In this document: positions 1,564-29,370 of the stretch, piece after piece
Layout of the letters: each line of letters begins with the position of its first letter
Position numbering within the stretch: the stretch's first letter is position 1
From: a virus
IMG/VR virus record: IMGVR_UViG_3300010153_000057
Span: 1-30,948 of that record
Direction: 5' to 3' (one strand)
Length of the DNA stretch: 30,948 nt
Notes under the pieces: model-generated
Database searches by the model: none
Told to the model about the DNA's origin: nothing
What the model saw: only the letters and a program-made list of their open reading frames with translations
Made by a program: the position numbers and the translations under genes

Positions 1564-1647
1564 AAGGGTTTGGGAAGGGTATAATGTACCCTACATAATA
1601 AAGCTAAAGCTATAAATAAAGCTATGGATAAGGATATAGTTATAGTT
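1564..1647 (+). repeat. origin-like element, copy A (non-coding)
   Basis: AAGGGT half-sites lie at 1564-1569 and 1575-1580 (step 11 bp). The palindrome AGGGTA-TAATG-TACCCT is at 1576-1592. After a 7-nt spacer ACATAAT come eight consecutive A-rich hexamers (1600-1647) of the types AAAGCT, AAGGAT and ATAGTT. The same architecture is seen at 22942-23036 and 27640-27728. Read in the frame matching the coding copy it contains a stop, so this copy is not protein-coding. It ends 14 bp before the -7 box of the terS promoter, so it could act as an origin, as a regulator site for the late operon, or as part of the packaging region. Confidence 0.8.
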
Positions 1648-1660
1648 TACACTATTTTTG

Positions 1661-1668
1661 TATATTTG
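1661..1668 (+). promoter_or_regulatory. late promoter -7 box of the terminase operon
   Basis: TATATTTG matches the Bacteroidota -7 consensus TAnnTTTG. The ATG of terS begins only 4 nt further on (TATATTTGCAGTATG), so the transcript is predicted to be leaderless or nearly so. The -33 element is weak (GTT near 1639). The inverted-repeat arm TTTACACTA (1646-1654) lies between the two boxes and could be an operator. Confidence 0.7.
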
Positions 1669-17667: not shown

Positions 17668-18240
17668 ATGGCAATAGAAAATTTAGTTTTAGCTACTACT
17701 GACTTTGAGAAAAGAGGTGGTTTAAGACATATAGGTCTTTGTGCAACATCAAACCTAACACCTACGTTTACTGCCGCAGGTACAGCAGATACTCACGCTG
17801 TGGCTTTAGTTGATGGTGCTTCCTTAGCTTTGTTTGACTTAAAGCAAGGTACGGGTTCTTTAACAACTAGCGGTTCAAAAGAAAATGGTGTTATGATGTT
17901 TGAGCATACTCTTTCATTCTACATTCCTAACTGTTCAAACGAACACTTTGGAAACTTACAAAAATTATTACAAGAGCAAATTGCTGCTGTTGTAGTTGAC
18001 CATAACGACCAAGCGTTCTGTATAGGTATGTCTGCTGCTTTTCAGCACACAACAGGTTCAGGTTCTTTCAATAATCAAATGTACGCTACAATGACAGGTC
18101 TTGAAGGTGGCACAGGTGCTGCTTTAGGCGATGAAAACGGTGTTACTGTTACTATTACTTGTTCTTCAGGAGAACTTCCTAGAACTGTATCAAGTACGGT
18201 TACTGTTGACCTTGCAGCAGGTACAATGGCATTATCTTAA
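17668..18240 (+). CDS. putative major tail tube protein
   Basis: A 190-residue, beta-rich, soluble protein (DFEKRGGLRHIGLCATS, VMMFEHTLSFYIPNC, FCIGMSAAFQHTTGSG, MYATMTGLEGGTG, then VTVTITCSSGE) with few charged clusters. Length, beta content and position next to the major capsid gene between two terminators suit a highly expressed virion protein, most likely the tail tube; a decoration protein is the alternative. The leader is A-rich (AATAATAAAATGG) and has no promoter box, so it depends on read-through of the terminator at 17616-17647. Confidence 0.5.
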   Translation: MAIENLVLATTDFEKRGGLRHIGLCATSNLTPTFTAAGTADTHAVALVDGASLALFDLKQGTGSLTTSGSKENGVMMFEHTLSFYIPNCSNEHFGNLQKLLQEQIAAVVVDHNDQAFCIGMSAAFQHTTGSGSFNNQMYATMTGLEGGTGAALGDENGVTVTITCSSGELPRTVSSTVTVDLAAGTMALS

Positions 18241-22457: not shown

Positions 22458-22939
22458 TGGAATTAGTTGTATTAAGATATAATTTACAAAACGATAGCAC
22501 CAACGGAATGTTATTGCAAAAGACTACAAAAGGGTATGACTTTCTTTGTTATACTCTAGAAGATGAGTATAGGGTAACTAAGGTTAAGGGGGAAACAATG
22601 ATTCCTTACGGATGTTACGAAATTAAAATAAGAAAAGAAGGTGGATTTCATAATAAATATAGCAAAAGATTTTCTGATATACACGATGGTATGCTTCATA
22701 TCGTCAATGTTCCTAATTTTGAGTATGTTCTTATACATTGCGGAAATACTGACGAGCATACTGCGGGGTGTTTACTTGTTGGCGACAACCAAGAAAACAA
22801 CGGATTAATTTCTAATGGATTTATAGGAAAGTCATCACAAGCCTACAAAAGAATTTACCCGCCAATTTTAGATGCTTTGCAAAAAGAAGAAAAAGTGTTT
22901 ATAGAATATATACATATAGACAATTTTACTAATAATTAA
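22457..22939 (+). CDS. DUF5675 family protein, candidate lysis enzyme
   Basis: The protein has 160 residues. The diagnostic stretch is MIPYGCYEIKIR, then LHIVNVPNFEYVLIHCGNTDEHTAGCLLVGD: His, then HxxNT-like and T-x-GC, reminiscent of L,D-transpeptidase-type (YkuD) catalytic patterns with a Cys. DUF5675 proteins are frequent in Bacteroidota phages; their activity is not established as far as I know. The neighbours (two small membrane proteins before, a 3TM holin after) point to cell-wall cleavage or remodelling at lysis. I chose the ATG at 22457 (1-nt overlap with the preceding stop) over an earlier non-ATG start at 22445. Confidence 0.65.
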   Translation: MELVVLRYNLQNDSTNGMLLQKTTKGYDFLCYTLEDEYRVTKVKGETMIPYGCYEIKIRKEGGFHNKYSKRFSDIHDGMLHIVNVPNFEYVLIHCGNTDEHTAGCLLVGDNQENNGLISNGFIGKSSQAYKRIYPPILDALQKEEKVFIEYIHIDNFTNN

Positions 22940-22941
22940 TT

Positions 22942-23036
22942 AACCCTTGCTAAAGGGTTCACAAAGGGTAGTTTATACCCTATATAATAAAGCTAAAGAT
23001 AAAGCTAAGGTTATAGTTAAAGATAAAGTTAAAGAT
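22942..23036 (+). repeat. origin-like element, copy B (between lysis genes)
   Basis: AACCCTT (22942-22948, inverted), AAGGGT (22953-22958) and AAGGGTA (22964-22970) are stepped by exactly 11 bp. The palindrome AGGGTA-GTTTA-TACCCT is at 22965-22981. A 7-nt spacer ATATAAT is followed by eight A-rich hexamers (22989-23036; AAAGCT, AAAGAT, AAGGTT, ATAGTT, AAAGTT types) that run right up to the ATG of the holin gene. The frame stays open from a TTG at 22947 and would read LKGSQ... KAKDKAK, echoing the coding copy C, but the holin fold begins after the element. Confidence 0.85.
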
Positions 23037-23426
23037 ATGAGTATTTTAGGAAAAATTTTTAGTAGCGGTGCAAAAGAGTTAGTAGAATCTGTTGGCGGTA
23101 TAGTCGATGAATTGCACACATCAAAAGAAGAAAAAGCAGAACTAAAACATAAGTTTGAAGAAATGATAATGTCTTACGAAGCTAAGATGCAACAAGAGGT
23201 AACTAAGCGTTGGGAAGCTGATATGCAAGGTAATTGGCTTACAAAGTCTATAAGACCTCTTACACTAGCTTTCTTAATGATTGTTTTAACTACATTTACA
23301 TTAGTTGATTTTGGATTTGTAGATATGGATATTAAAGATTCTTGGATTGACCTATGGCAAATTTTAGCTATTACCTGCTTTGGTGCATACTTTGGTGGTC
23401 GTTCTTACGAAAAAATAAAGAAATAA
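23037..23426 (+). CDS. 3TM-type holin (GTA-holin-like)
   Basis: The protein has 129 residues. An amphipathic/charged N-terminus (LVESVGGIVDELHTSKEEKAELKHKFEEM) is followed by RWEADMQGNWLTKSIRPLTLAFLMIVLT, then another membrane segment (LWQILAITCFGAYFGGRSYEKIKK). The RWxxDM...W....RP signature is that of the Holin_3TM family. It forms the lesion that releases the lysis enzyme. I chose the ATG at 23037 because the 5' part of the longer frame (from 22947) is the repeat element, not part of the family. It is the last gene before the 23515-23547 terminator. Confidence 0.75.
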   Translation: MSILGKIFSSGAKELVESVGGIVDELHTSKEEKAELKHKFEEMIMSYEAKMQQEVTKRWEADMQGNWLTKSIRPLTLAFLMIVLTTFTLVDFGFVDMDIKDSWIDLWQILAITCFGAYFGGRSYEKIKK

Positions 23427-25642: not shown

Positions 25643-25867
25643 ATGAAAGCAGCAAGTAGTAAATTTGAATCACTTATGCGAGAGCTAGGTGTAACTAAAA
25701 AAGAGTTTAGCGAGATTACAGGAGTTAAAGGAACGACTGTAAGCAAGTATTTAGCAAACCCAAGTATGTTAAGACTAAAGCACATACAATGTTTGTCAGA
25801 GAAGCCTAAAATAAACGAGAAGCACGACTTAAACAGCTTAATACAAACTATACAAAATGACGATTAA
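25643..25867 (+). CDS. Cro/CI-like helix-turn-helix protein
   Basis: The 74-residue protein has a compact HTH at residues 6-50 (FESLMRELGVTKKEFSEITGVKGTTVSKYLANPSML), with TTVSKYL as the recognition helix. It resembles the HTH_3 / Cro family. It could repress or activate early phage promoters. No CI-type partner gene is visible in the window, so a lysogeny switch is not supported. Overlaps the DnaA-like gene by 11 nt. Confidence 0.65.
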   Translation: MKAASSKFESLMRELGVTKKEFSEITGVKGTTVSKYLANPSMLRLKHIQCLSEKPKINEKHDLNSLIQTIQNDD

Positions 25868-26288
25868 TCAATTACAATATCAAAAGTATCAAGCACTAAG
25901 AGATGCGGTTTGTACCGTTTATGGTATAACATTAGAGCAATTAGAGGGTAACGTAAGAAAAGCACCGATAGTTGCAGGAAAAAGAATGTTTTTTTATTTT
26001 TTACGAAAGCACTACTTTTTACCTTATCAAAAAATATCAAGTATCTTTAAAATGAATCACGCAACAGTAATACATCATTGCAGGACAATGAAAGGATATA
26101 TGGATTATGACAAAGACGTAATACTTGATTATATTAGAGTTAGAGATTTAGTGTTCGAGCAGAACAGCTTTGTAACACTAAAGGATGAACTAGAGGTATT
26201 AGAAAAAGAAGCGTTAGTAATAAACGATAGAATAGATAAAATTAGAACTGAAATTAATTATTTAACTGAATTAGAAAATGGAAATTAA
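25857..26288 (+). CDS. stand-alone DnaA domain IV-like DNA-binding protein
   Basis: The protein has 143 residues. Residues about 22-85 match DnaA domain IV (GITLEQLEGNVRKAPIVAGKRMFFYFLRKHY, then YQKISSIFKMNHATVIHHCRTMKGY): the basic loop, and the NHATVIHHC helix corresponding to DnaA's (D/N)HSTV(I/M)HA signature. There is no AAA+ ATPase domain (too short). The C-terminal 45 residues are a coiled coil. In DnaA this domain reads 9-bp boxes at the origin. Here it would bind phage or host origin DNA and recruit or displace replication proteins. It sits upstream of the SSB-like gene and the replisome organizer. Confidence 0.8.
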   Translation: MTINQLQYQKYQALRDAVCTVYGITLEQLEGNVRKAPIVAGKRMFFYFLRKHYFLPYQKISSIFKMNHATVIHHCRTMKGYMDYDKDVILDYIRVRDLVFEQNSFVTLKDELEVLEKEALVINDRIDKIRTEINYLTELENGN

Positions 26289-26589
26289 AGGAACTTTAGA
26301 AGCGATTTTTGAAACAAAAGAGTTCAAAAGCGGATTTAAGAAAAGAGAATTTGTGATAAACACAGGTGGAGATTACCCACAATCAATCAAAATGGAAGTC
26401 GTAAAAGACAACATTGACAAGTTAGACACATTGCCTATTGGTAGTGATGTAGATTGTAAGATTGATATTAGAGGTCGTCTGTACGAGGGAAACTATTACA
26501 ATAACATACTTGCTTGGGCAATAGATGGAAGTGGTGCTAAACCATCTAAGAAAGCAGAAGTAAAAGAAGAATCAGACTTACCTTTTTAA
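26278..26589 (+). CDS. SSB-like protein (DUF3127 family)
   Basis: The 103-residue protein has an OB-fold-like pattern: MEIKGTLEAIFETKEFKSGFKKREFVIN, GDYPQSIKMEVVKDNIDKLDTL, VDCKIDIRGRLYEGNYYNNILAWAID, as in DUF3127. The acidic tail ends in DLPF, as in SSB proteins where the tip docks replication partners. It binds single-stranded DNA at the fork (family knowledge). Overlaps the DnaA domain IV gene by 11 nt, so they are co-translated, which supports a joint role in replication. Confidence 0.8.
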   Translation: MEIKGTLEAIFETKEFKSGFKKREFVINTGGDYPQSIKMEVVKDNIDKLDTLPIGSDVDCKIDIRGRLYEGNYYNNILAWAIDGSGAKPSKKAEVKEESDLPF

Positions 26590-26618: not shown

Positions 26619-26834
26619 GTGAAATCGAAAACTAAAAGAAAGAACGTAAAGAGGGTAGATAGCTTGTTAGCCAAGAACGCTGCCCTCAACGCTTCTCTCG
26701 GTATGGATAGCACCAAAACTGAGATAGAGGTCGTTAGAAAAGATATAAGAGTAAATATCAGAAAAATTAAAGATATGTGCGAATACACATATAATATTAT
26801 AAATGTAGATGATAACCATAAAACAGTACATTGA
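26619..26834 (+). CDS. small basic helical protein
   Basis: The protein has 71 residues if started at GTG 26619, or 73 from TTG 26613; no ATG lies near the beginning. It has KTKRKNVKRVDSLLAKNAALNAS, then an IRVNIRKIKDMCEYTYNII helix and an HKTVH end. It is highly basic and probably nucleic acid binding. It shares its TGA with the ATG of the nuclease gene (1-nt overlap). Function unknown. Confidence 0.5.
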   Translation: MKSKTKRKNVKRVDSLLAKNAALNASLGMDSTKTEIEVVRKDIRVNIRKIKDMCEYTYNIINVDDNHKTVH

Positions 26835-27259
26835 TGAAGTTTGAAACTGCTAATGATTTTAAAAGACAAGACAGGGCGGCTAGGTATTTTTGTAATAAGT
26901 ATGACTACTCTTACGCTTCATCAGAAGAATGGGGTAAAATAGATTATCAAATATTCGGACTTAATGCTGAGGTTATTTGTGGGTTTGAGGTCAAGGGGTG
27001 CAAGAATCAAAAGATAGGAGATAAAGACAAGGTATTAGTTTCTATGCGTAAGATTGTAGATGCTCAACAATATCAAATAAAAAACAATAAGCCTGTTGTT
27101 ATGTGTTGGGCGTTTGATGATGGCATATTATTTAATAGACTAAACAATTTAGAGGGTACTTTTAAGCTAGGAGGAAGAAAACCAAGAGCAGGTTCTACAT
27201 TCGATGTGGAGATGTTAGTTTATGTAGAGCAAAGAAATCTTAATAAAATTTTGTTTTAG
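26834..27259 (+). CDS. PD-(D/E)XK-type nuclease-like protein
   Basis: The protein has 141 residues. The catalytic-site pattern is KIDYQIFG (D37), then ICGFEVKGC (E52, K54) at the usual spacing for the restriction-endonuclease-like fold, followed by the helix SMRKIVDAQQYQIKNNKPVVMCWAF that typically lies behind it. Proteins of this layout occur in replication regions of marine phages. Substrate unknown: candidates are recombination intermediates or host DNA. I chose the ATG at 26834 rather than TTG 26831. The gene ends the operon that began at 24434; a new promoter follows. Confidence 0.65.
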   Translation: MKFETANDFKRQDRAARYFCNKYDYSYASSEEWGKIDYQIFGLNAEVICGFEVKGCKNQKIGDKDKVLVSMRKIVDAQQYQIKNNKPVVMCWAFDDGILFNRLNNLEGTFKLGGRKPRAGSTFDVEMLVYVEQRNLNKILF

Positions 27260-27311: not shown

Positions 27312-27980
27312 ATGGCAAAAAGAATGACAGATACGGACAAGTGGAAGAAACGCTTTGTTCGTGAATTAAAACCTGAACACAAGCTACTATGGTTCTACAT
27401 ATTAGATGACTGCAATCACGCAGGTATATGGGAGGTGGATTTAGAGGTAGCTTCTATAAGAGTAGGTTTTGAATTATCACACGACAATCTACCATCATCA
27501 TTTGGCGATAAAGTAATATCGTTTGATGATGGCGATAAGTGGTTTATTCCTGACTTTATTGAGTATCAGTATGGAGAGTTAAATCCAAACTCAAACGTAC
27601 ATAAATCAGTTTTAAATATTTTAAATAAATATAATCTTGAAGGGTATTTGAAGGGTTCACAAGGGGTACAAACTACCCTTAAAGATAAGGATAAAGATAT
27701 AGTTATAGTTAAAGATAAAGCTAAGGCTAAAAGGTTTGTAAAACCAAACATTGAAGATGTTGTTGATTATTGCAACGAAAGAAAAAATAATGTAGATGCT
27801 GAAAAGTTTTACGATTACTATTCTTCTAACGGTTGGAAAGTAGGTAAAAATGCAATGAAAGATTGGAAAGCATCTGTAAGAACTTGGGAGAAGAACTCAA
27901 CAGATAATAAAAAAGTATCACAACCAAAACAAGTATTAACAGCTTGGCAACAAGCAAGAACACAAATTAACAATGGATAA
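27312..27980 (+). CDS. replisome organizer (Lin1244/DnaD-like replication protein)
   Basis: The protein has 222 residues. Residues 10-95 form the Lin1244-type winged-helix domain (KRFVRELKPEHKLLWFYILDDC, HAGIWEVDLEVASI, WFIPDFIEYQYGEL). Residues 110-139 are a Lys/Asp linker (EGYLKGSQGVQ, then KDKDKDIVIVKDKAKA). Residues 160-195 are the C-terminal FYDYYSSNGWKVGKNAMKDWKASVRTW block seen in helicase-loader and DnaD-like phage proteins. The protein should bind the phage origin and load helicase. The linker is encoded by origin-like copy C, as in lambda O where the origin lies inside its gene. This makes it the prime candidate for binding the AAGGGT half-sites. Family recognised by motif; DNA target is inference. 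Confidence 0.8.
   Translation: MAKRMTDTDKWKKRFVRELKPEHKLLWFYILDDCNHAGIWEVDLEVASIRVGFELSHDNLPSSFGDKVISFDDGDKWFIPDFIEYQYGELNPNSNVHKSVLNILNKYNLEGYLKGSQGVQTTLKDKDKDIVIVKDKAKAKRFVKPNIEDVVDYCNERKNNVDAEKFYDYYSSNGWKVGKNAMKDWKASVRTWEKNSTDNKKVSQPKQVLTAWQQARTQINNG
27640..27728 (+). repeat. origin-like element, copy C (inside the replisome organizer gene)
   Basis: AAGGGTA (27640), AAGGGT (27651) and AGGGGTA (27662) are stepped by exactly 11 bp. GGGTA-CAAAC-TACCC is at 27664-27678. After a single T, eight perfect-length hexamers occupy 27681-27728 (AAAGAT, AAGGAT, ATAGTT, AAAGCT, AAGGCT types). The hexamers encode dipeptides (KD, IV, KA), which explains the odd protein linker. This matches iterons followed by an easily melted region, so it is the best origin candidate in the window. 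Confidence 0.85.
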
Positions 27981-28954: not shown

Positions 28955-28986
28955 TTTGGTTTTTTCTATTTTATATCTTATATTTG
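28955..28986 (+). promoter_or_regulatory. early promoter of the VRR-NUC operon
   Basis: TTTG (28955-28958), 20 bp, TATATTTG (28979-28986). The ATG of the nuclease gene is at 29002, so the leader is only about 9 nt. This explains the 60-bp spacing after the membrane-protein gene. Confidence 0.8.
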
Positions 28987-29001
28987 CTCAAAACAGAAAA
29001 G

Positions 29002-29370
29002 ATGGCAGAGAAAAGTGGTAATACTGAAGAAAAAGTACAGATAGCAATAGTAAACTATCTTAAACTTCAATACCCAAAAGCAATATTTACTGCGACAATG
29101 GGAGGTCAGTTCCAAAGACATTACTCTCAAAGGATGAAAGCAAAGCGTACAGGCTATTTAAAGGGGGTTAGCGACCTTTTAATCTTTGAACCGAATGATA
29201 AGTATTTCGGATTGTTTATAGAGCTTAAAAAGGACAAAAAGTCTTACCCGTCAAAAGAACAGAGGGCTTTCATAGGAGGGGTGTCTGACAGGGGGTACTA
29301 CGGGGTATGCTGCAAGGGGTTCGACCATTGCAAAGAAATAATAGATAAATATTTTAACAACGAACTATGA
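29002..29370 (+). CDS. VRR-NUC domain nuclease
   Basis: The 122-residue stand-alone VRR-NUC protein: YLKGVSDLLIFEP (D58), FGLFIELKKDKKS (E74, K76), SKEQRAFIG (Q87), then a Cys-rich end (YGVCCKGFDHC). The D...ExK...Q set is the PD-(D/E)XK active site of the family, whose members cut branched DNA such as Holliday junctions or flaps. In phages it is usually a recombination or packaging resolvase. I prefer the ATG at 29002 to the upstream TTG 28984, because the promoter -7 box covers 28979-28986. The stop overlaps the next ATG (ATGA). Confidence 0.85.
   Translation: MAEKSGNTEEKVQIAIVNYLKLQYPKAIFTATMGGQFQRHYSQRMKAKRTGYLKGVSDLLIFEPNDKYFGLFIELKKDKKSYPSKEQRAFIGGVSDRGYYGVCCKGFDHCKEIIDKYFNNEL

Follow-up and report, generated by a model that had tools for sequence, protein, structure and literature searches.

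A short DNA element inside the rep gene of IMGVR_UViG_3300010153_000057, a marine Bacteroidota-type phage, is most likely a replication origin. In the stretch of DNA analyzed here (30,948 nt, hereafter the window) this element was read directly at 27640-27728, and it combines G-rich half-sites at 11-bp steps with a ladder of A-rich hexamers. Since two further copies lie in front of the terminase and lysis genes, the sequence very probably represents a genuine protein-binding signal, one that belongs to the lambda/SPP1 origin type and is recognized by an initiator family not described before. We consider it probable that the half-sites form a binding array for the initiator Rep and the hexamers a DNA unwinding element, with the copy inside rep (copy 3) acting as origin.

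The half-site array and hexamer tract within rep

The features of rep and of copy 3 are as follows:

27312..27980, + strand: rep, encoding a predicted two-domain replication initiator of 222 aa (ORF, AF2, PHROG)
27312..27647, + strand: N-terminal winged-helix-like domain, proposed reader of the half-sites (AF2, Foldseek)
27640..27646, + strand: half-site 1, AAGGGTA (direct read; synonymous change about 0)
27651..27657, + strand: half-site 2, AAGGGTT, 11 bp on (synonymous change about 0)
27662..27668, + strand: half-site 3, AGGGGTA, 11 bp on; inverted (ACCCTA) in many relatives
27674..27680, - strand: half-site 4, inverted, TACCCTT as read on the + strand, 12 bp further on
27681..27728, + strand: tract of eight A-rich hexamers, put forward as DNA unwinding element, encoding a KDKDIVIVKDKAKA-type linker

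The GGG triplets of the first three half-sites start at 27642, 27653 and 27664, i.e. in steps of exactly 11 bp, and the CCC of the fourth starts at 27676, 12 bp after the third GGG. The pattern GGG-N8-GGG-N8-GGG occurs once in the window, compared to 0.02 expected occurrences. An earlier note on this DNA had described three AAGGGT(A)-type half-sites at this spacing; the spacing proved exact, while the third site reads AGGGGTA and not AAGGGT. The palindrome GGGTA(27664-68)-N5-TACCC(27674-78) and the eight A-rich hexamers at 27681-27728, both listed in the same note, were recovered by direct reading. The hexamers are, in order, AAAGAT, AAGGAT, AAAGAT, ATAGTT, ATAGTT, AAAGAT, AAAGCT and AAGGCT. 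Hereby, the tract shows an AT content of 0.76, a purine content of 0.72 (97th percentile) and a duplex instability at the 95th percentile; for the hexamer tracts of the window in general, low duplex stability lies at the 95-97.5 percentile, which places them within the least stable 5% of the genome. Repeated initiator-type sites within the initiator's own gene (27640-27680) and an adjoining AT-rich, strand-asymmetric candidate unwinding region, the hexamer tract, are thus both found in copy 3. GC skew is positive almost throughout the window and, being monotonic without a turning point, cannot place an origin; AT skew is monotonic too, with no origin turning point. An origin based on DnaA boxes was ruled out, as these boxes are not enriched in the window (3 found versus 5.5 expected).

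Constraint on copy 3 was evaluated with 80 codon-aligned rep relatives from IMG/VR (71-93% identity), of which 52 non-redundant genes entered the synonymous test. The ratio of observed to expected synonymous change is 0.085 for residues 109-123, compared to 1.11 for residues 1-104 and 1.13 for residues 143-222. Over the hexamers the ratio amounts to 0.59, the lowest 15-codon window elsewhere reaching 0.78. Among 200,000 random column sets of the same size, not one is as low in synonymous change as the half-site residues, and the glycines of sites 1 and 2 retain their codons GGG and GGT throughout the aligned relatives. In many relatives sites 3 and 4 are inverted (CAA GGG GTA CAA AGT ACC CTT becoming CAA ACC CTA CCT AAT AGG GTT), which alters six consecutive residues (QGVQST-L versus QTLPNR-V) and leaves the GGG/CCC base positions identical. 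Intermediate forms of these two sites occur as well (ACCCTAcctgaAGGGGTA), and the fourth site is degenerate (ACCGTA) in one sub-group. Considering all copies in 17 contigs, the half-site consensus is (A)AGGGT(A/T), with the T after GGG invariant in 160 of 160 collected sites, which had been chosen on GGG or CCC. Free drift of the 11-bp spacing among close relatives, which the earlier note had named as a refuting outcome, is not seen: the spacing is fixed, and the hexamers retain register and pattern while differing in number. The alignments hence support a constraint on the in-gene element at the DNA and not the protein level.

A purely protein-level constraint, or a chance low-complexity KD linker devoid of DNA function, is hardly credible. 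KDKDKD linkers are indeed common in unrelated phage initiators, for example in a P. gingivalis phage that lacks G runs, but here the synonymous sites are frozen, the amino acids vary while the bases stay, the same sequence also occurs in noncoding DNA, and one distant relative (L231) uses another reading frame. The results on synonymous sites and on the noncoding copies already contradict a protein-only or chance origin of the KD linker.

An RNA element in the transcript, made up of a hairpin and an A-rich tract and serving e.g. processive antitermination or as a translation signal, appears quite improbable. It would agree with the placement of all copies on the transcribed strand, with the hairpins that some forms can make (GGGTAC-AAA-GTACCC or ACCCTA-N5-TAGGGT) and with the tract of copy 2, which runs into a start codon. 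The hairpin is disfavored, however, because pairing is not what the relatives conserve: the GGG/CCC phase is kept instead, sites 1 and 2 are direct repeats, the ACCCTA/ACCGTA group is unable to pair, the distant relative L287 has three direct sites, and half-site orientation differs between copies. With pairing lost while the base phase is retained, the hairpin was ruled out as the conserved feature. An Rfam search gave 0 matches at the gathering threshold.

The Rep protein and its distant relatives

According to AF2, Rep consists of a folded N-domain (residues 1-112), a disordered linker (residues 115-140), which roughly corresponds to the stretch encoding the element, and a helical C-domain. 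The full-length model has a mean pLDDT of 70.7 and a pTM of 0.46; for the N-domain model, whose helices and strands follow the order of winged helices, these values are 86.7 and 0.78. In a Foldseek search of BFVD the best named match of the N-domain is A0A8S5LV39, named 'Replisome organizer', at an E value of 9e-4 and a TMq of 0.65; other matches are organizers at E 0.03-0.07 as well as DnaD-like and RepL proteins. In line with this likeness to annotated organizers, the N-domain is predicted to adopt a winged-helix fold similar to that of phage replisome organizers. Structural comparison with the PDB returned nothing significant for the full-length model or for the N-domain, the latter coming near plasmid Rep structures at E ~0.6-1.3, and a PDB sequence-profile search with Rep gave no match.

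Pfam assigns 0 families to the window Rep at E<=0.01, and 32 Rep members yielded scattered weak or C-domain matches, with no Lin1244/DUF4373 at E<=0.1. Among the PHROGs there is no convincing match for the N-domain (one of 43 members reaches one, at E 0.007). For the C-domain there is a match to phrog_15768 (4e-26) and a weak one to a DnaD-like helicase loader family (4e-4); Vibrio phage proteins annotated DUF4373 match this domain as well. The Lin1244-like label that the earlier note had given to the protein could not be confirmed, because a Pfam match is lacking and the PHROG similarity is limited to the C-terminal domain. Its placement of an iteron-plus-A-rich element within a replication-initiator gene holds: the element is under DNA-level constraint and goes together with the N-terminal domain of Rep.

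This linkage is seen in Pseudanabaena phage Pan5, which has residues 1-118 in common with Rep (58%) and a different C-domain. The linker of Pan5 reads ATGGGG-CATCTAT-CCCCC-ATAAAT-GGGGG-TAAAG followed by AAGGATAAAGATAAAGACAAGGAT, with the runs at 11-bp steps. Alignment searches with the N-domain yielded dozens more members with differing C-domains, and most of these distant members carry G-rich half-sites, stepped by 11 ± 1 bp and followed by hexamers, in a linker of unrelated amino acids. Thereby, L223 shows CCCC-CCC-GGGG and WARGRT hexamers translated as DKDMVMDKVMVKDK, L287 reads AAAGGGTATCC-AAAGGGTATAC-AAAGGGTATAC-ATACCC, and the hexamers of L231 are translated in another frame (QGQGNGQGQG). 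In L306 the half-sites have jointly switched to GCACC/GGTG with the 11-bp step kept; in L275 the step is 9 bp. When the synonymous codons of 16 distant genes were shuffled, 4.3 phased pairs were expected in total, compared to 21 observed, a result which is strong only as a total and weak gene by gene (most P 0.01-0.2).

Counting against the origin reading, recognisable half-sites were not found in a few N-domain relatives (L250, L277), and some others miss the full set of runs. As a counter-test, the contigs of N-domain relatives with an element-free linker were scanned, and related noncoding elements were found there. G033 contains two clear elements with hexamers, one of which closely precedes a terS-like ORF, and G034 also has a clear element with hexamers; those in G036 and G035 are weaker, and in contig G037 these scans found none. 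By contrast, in a P. gingivalis phage whose likeness to Rep is limited to the C-domain, KD hexamers are present but G runs are not. In four distant reps (L204, L217, L222, L231) a second half-site cluster lies at codons ~13-25 (e.g. AAGCCCTTTATAAGGGGCTTACAAGGGGCTTAT), which is possibly autoregulatory.

Noncoding copies of the element

The earlier note had reported the element at one place, and this did not hold: in addition to 27640-27728, the window contains two noncoding copies, one before the terminase small-subunit gene terS (copy 1, 1564-1647) and one before a holin-like gene (copy 2, 22943-23036). With these two copies present, copy 3 is a candidate and not necessarily 'the origin'. Their features are:

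1564..1592, + strand: three half-sites of copy 1 (AAGGGT, AAGGGTA, TACCCT), noncoding
1600..1647, + strand: eight hexamers of copy 1
1661..1668, + strand: TATATTTG, TAnnTTTG -7 box, 4 nt before the terS ATG (1673)
22943..22981, + strand: four half-sites of copy 2 (ACCCTT, AAGGGTT, AAGGGTA, TACCCT), noncoding, kept in relatives
22989..23036, + strand: eight hexamers of copy 2, ending at the ATG of the holin-like gene (23037)

A search of the window for the three-part motif AGGGT-N6-RGGGT-N6-TACCC, allowing up to 2 mismatches, gave three matches with 0 mismatches at 1565, 22954 and 27652, all on the + strand, compared to 0.02 expected; three matches were reached in none of 100 shuffles. Each copy then continues with exactly eight hexamers that are, or come close to, WARGNT. 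The site-1 position of copy 1 is degenerate in the window and intact in some relatives, and the purine bias of this copy is unexceptional (79th percentile). Directly upstream of it lies an inverted repeat (1540-1562, CCTATTTTATAGG), which recurs in relatives, often imperfectly. Copy 2 is located between a gene end at 22939 and the holin-like ATG at 23037. This noncoding copy continues without a stop into the frame of the holin-like ORF (22947-23426, LKGSQRVVYTLYNKAKDKAKVIVKDKVKD-M) and would thus read like the rep linker.

The element pattern was matched in 14 of 16 related records, ten of which have three full copies and the rest one or two, every copy being oriented like rep; a reversed control pattern was matched in 0 of the 16. 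When inverted sites were accepted as well, the in-gene copy was also found in the remaining records, and copy 1 or 2 is missing or altered in a few. Most near-complete relatives retain the three-copy set. More distant relatives (seven contigs) and phage Pan5 have a single copy, located in rep. Noncoding copies without Rep were observed in 13 of 16 contigs, and the three of these that were inspected are all records of the same phage group. The inspected contig that spans early as well as late genes breaks off within the gene immediately preceding rep, so that these contigs are probably fragments and not counter-examples. A separate cluster of long G tracts with steps of ~11-13 bp occurs in several relatives roughly 2-4 kb downstream of rep (G006 17879-17940, G007 8572, G012 31930, G013 27420, G014 14460, G016 1472, G001 2267), and a similar G-rich stretch lies at 29275-29320 of the window, within the VRR-NUC gene.

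The main rival of the origin reading is a transcriptional operator, a rank it owes mainly to the promoter box following copy 1. Here, Rep or another phage DNA-binding protein would time the terminase operon (copy 1) and the lysis/early operon (copy 2), the in-gene copy would be autoregulatory or a decoy, and the origin would lie elsewhere. The TAnnTTTG box before terS, which corresponds to the known Bacteroidota -7 promoter consensus, stands behind copy 1 in every scanned relative having this copy, with the terS ATG a few bases on. Likewise, copy 2 adjoins the holin-like ATG, all copies are oriented along transcription, and the window encodes other HTH proteins. The scan found no such box behind copies 2 and 3, however, and a hexamer tract conserved in register would be needless for an operator and is typical of an unwinding element. 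Moreover, distant relatives scanned over their whole length show only the mid-gene copy, and it is the N-domain of a two-domain replication protein, not the regulators, that the sites go along with. On balance we regard the operator as unlikely.

Proposed mode of action and relation to known origins

For the favored origin reading we propose that the winged-helix N-domain of Rep reads (A)AGGGT(W) half-sites, so that four Rep molecules at 11-11-12 bp would sit on one face of the helix, with half-site orientation being secondary to helical phase. The assembled complex would then melt the adjoining hexamer tract, which is rich in purines and in AT, and a DnaB-type helicase of the host may be recruited by the C-terminal domain, comparable to lambda O with P and SPP1 G38P with G39P/G40P. 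Since the array lies at the disordered linker of Rep, the DNA could impose the amino acids here without much cost. Both noncoding copies would bind Rep too and might represent secondary origins. Alternatively, they could form a fork barrier which switches theta to concatemer replication, the role proposed for SPP1 oriR, or could place the neighboring late promoter under Rep-dependent control. A more far-reaching version is possible, albeit doubtful: a new initiator family would define a movable origin, composed of phase-fixed, orientation-free G-rich half-sites and an A-rich hexamer ladder, whose three copies couple replication to late expression. Hereby, Rep bound in rep would start theta replication, and Rep bound at the terminase-promoter and lysis-gene copies would switch late transcription or block forks to yield concatemers.

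An iteron origin within the initiator gene plus an extra copy is of a kind known from lambda and SPP1. In SPP1, oriL lies in gene 38 and the similar oriR is intergenic in the late region, with repeats and an AT-rich unwinding element; oriR bound by G38P is proposed to stall forks and thus to lead to concatemer replication (PMC6316719, PMC3485210). Common to both phages are the origin in the initiator gene, a probable one in the window phage, the similar copy outside this gene and the combination of repeats with an unwinding element, here a proposed one; a second similar copy beyond the initiator gene in the late region is found in the window (copies 1 and 2) and in relatives. SPP1 has two copies, however, and the window phage three, with 11-bp-stepped half-sites in mixed orientation and A-rich hexamers, and the window N-domain matches no Pfam family; the likeness to SPP1 is one of arrangement. 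The lambda ori in gene O consists of iterons followed by a strand-asymmetric AT-rich tract and is bound by the N-terminal half of O (PMC4488673, PMC5043065). The window phage has such iterons and such a tract inside the initiator gene, too. In lambda, however, four 19-bp inverted-repeat iterons are bound by dimers in a single ori, whereas the window phage has short half-sites on one helical face, free in orientation and in up to three copies. DnaD-like and Lin1244-type proteins resemble Rep in the C-domain (phrog_15768; weakly DnaD-like loader), but Rep is without a Pfam match and the C-domains of distant members are unrelated. Bacterial DnaA/oriC shares the principle of initiator boxes adjoining a short-period melting tract. 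The DnaA-trio has a period of 3; the half-sites of the window are, in contrast to those of oriC, GGGT-type, and the melting tract has a period of 6.

A search of the open-paper literature found no description of the element, and no paper treating DUF4373 together with 'phage'. We consider four things as new: the initiator family, half-sites that are stepped by 11 bp but free in orientation, a hexamer ladder that does not depend on the reading frame, and the placement of three copies around the early region. A widespread group of uncultured phages hereby gains, from sequence alone, a predicted origin and a predicted initiator family outside Pfam and PHROGs. Moreover, a DNA signal here dictates protein sequence, with the same bases read as KDKD, VKVM or QGQG and inversions rewriting six residues. 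The three-copy arrangement raises the question whether one initiator governs replication start, fork stalling and late transcription via the same element.

A short protein (25857-26288) corresponds to DnaA domain IV only (Bac_DnaA_C, E 3e-13), with no AAA+ domain, and a DUF3127 protein encoded near rep (26278-26589) matches the phage single-strand DNA-binding family phrog_4932 (5e-24). Nuclease genes flank rep, namely a putative PDDEXK_14 endonuclease at 26831-27259 and a VRR-NUC (Holliday-junction-resolvase-like) protein at 28984-29370.
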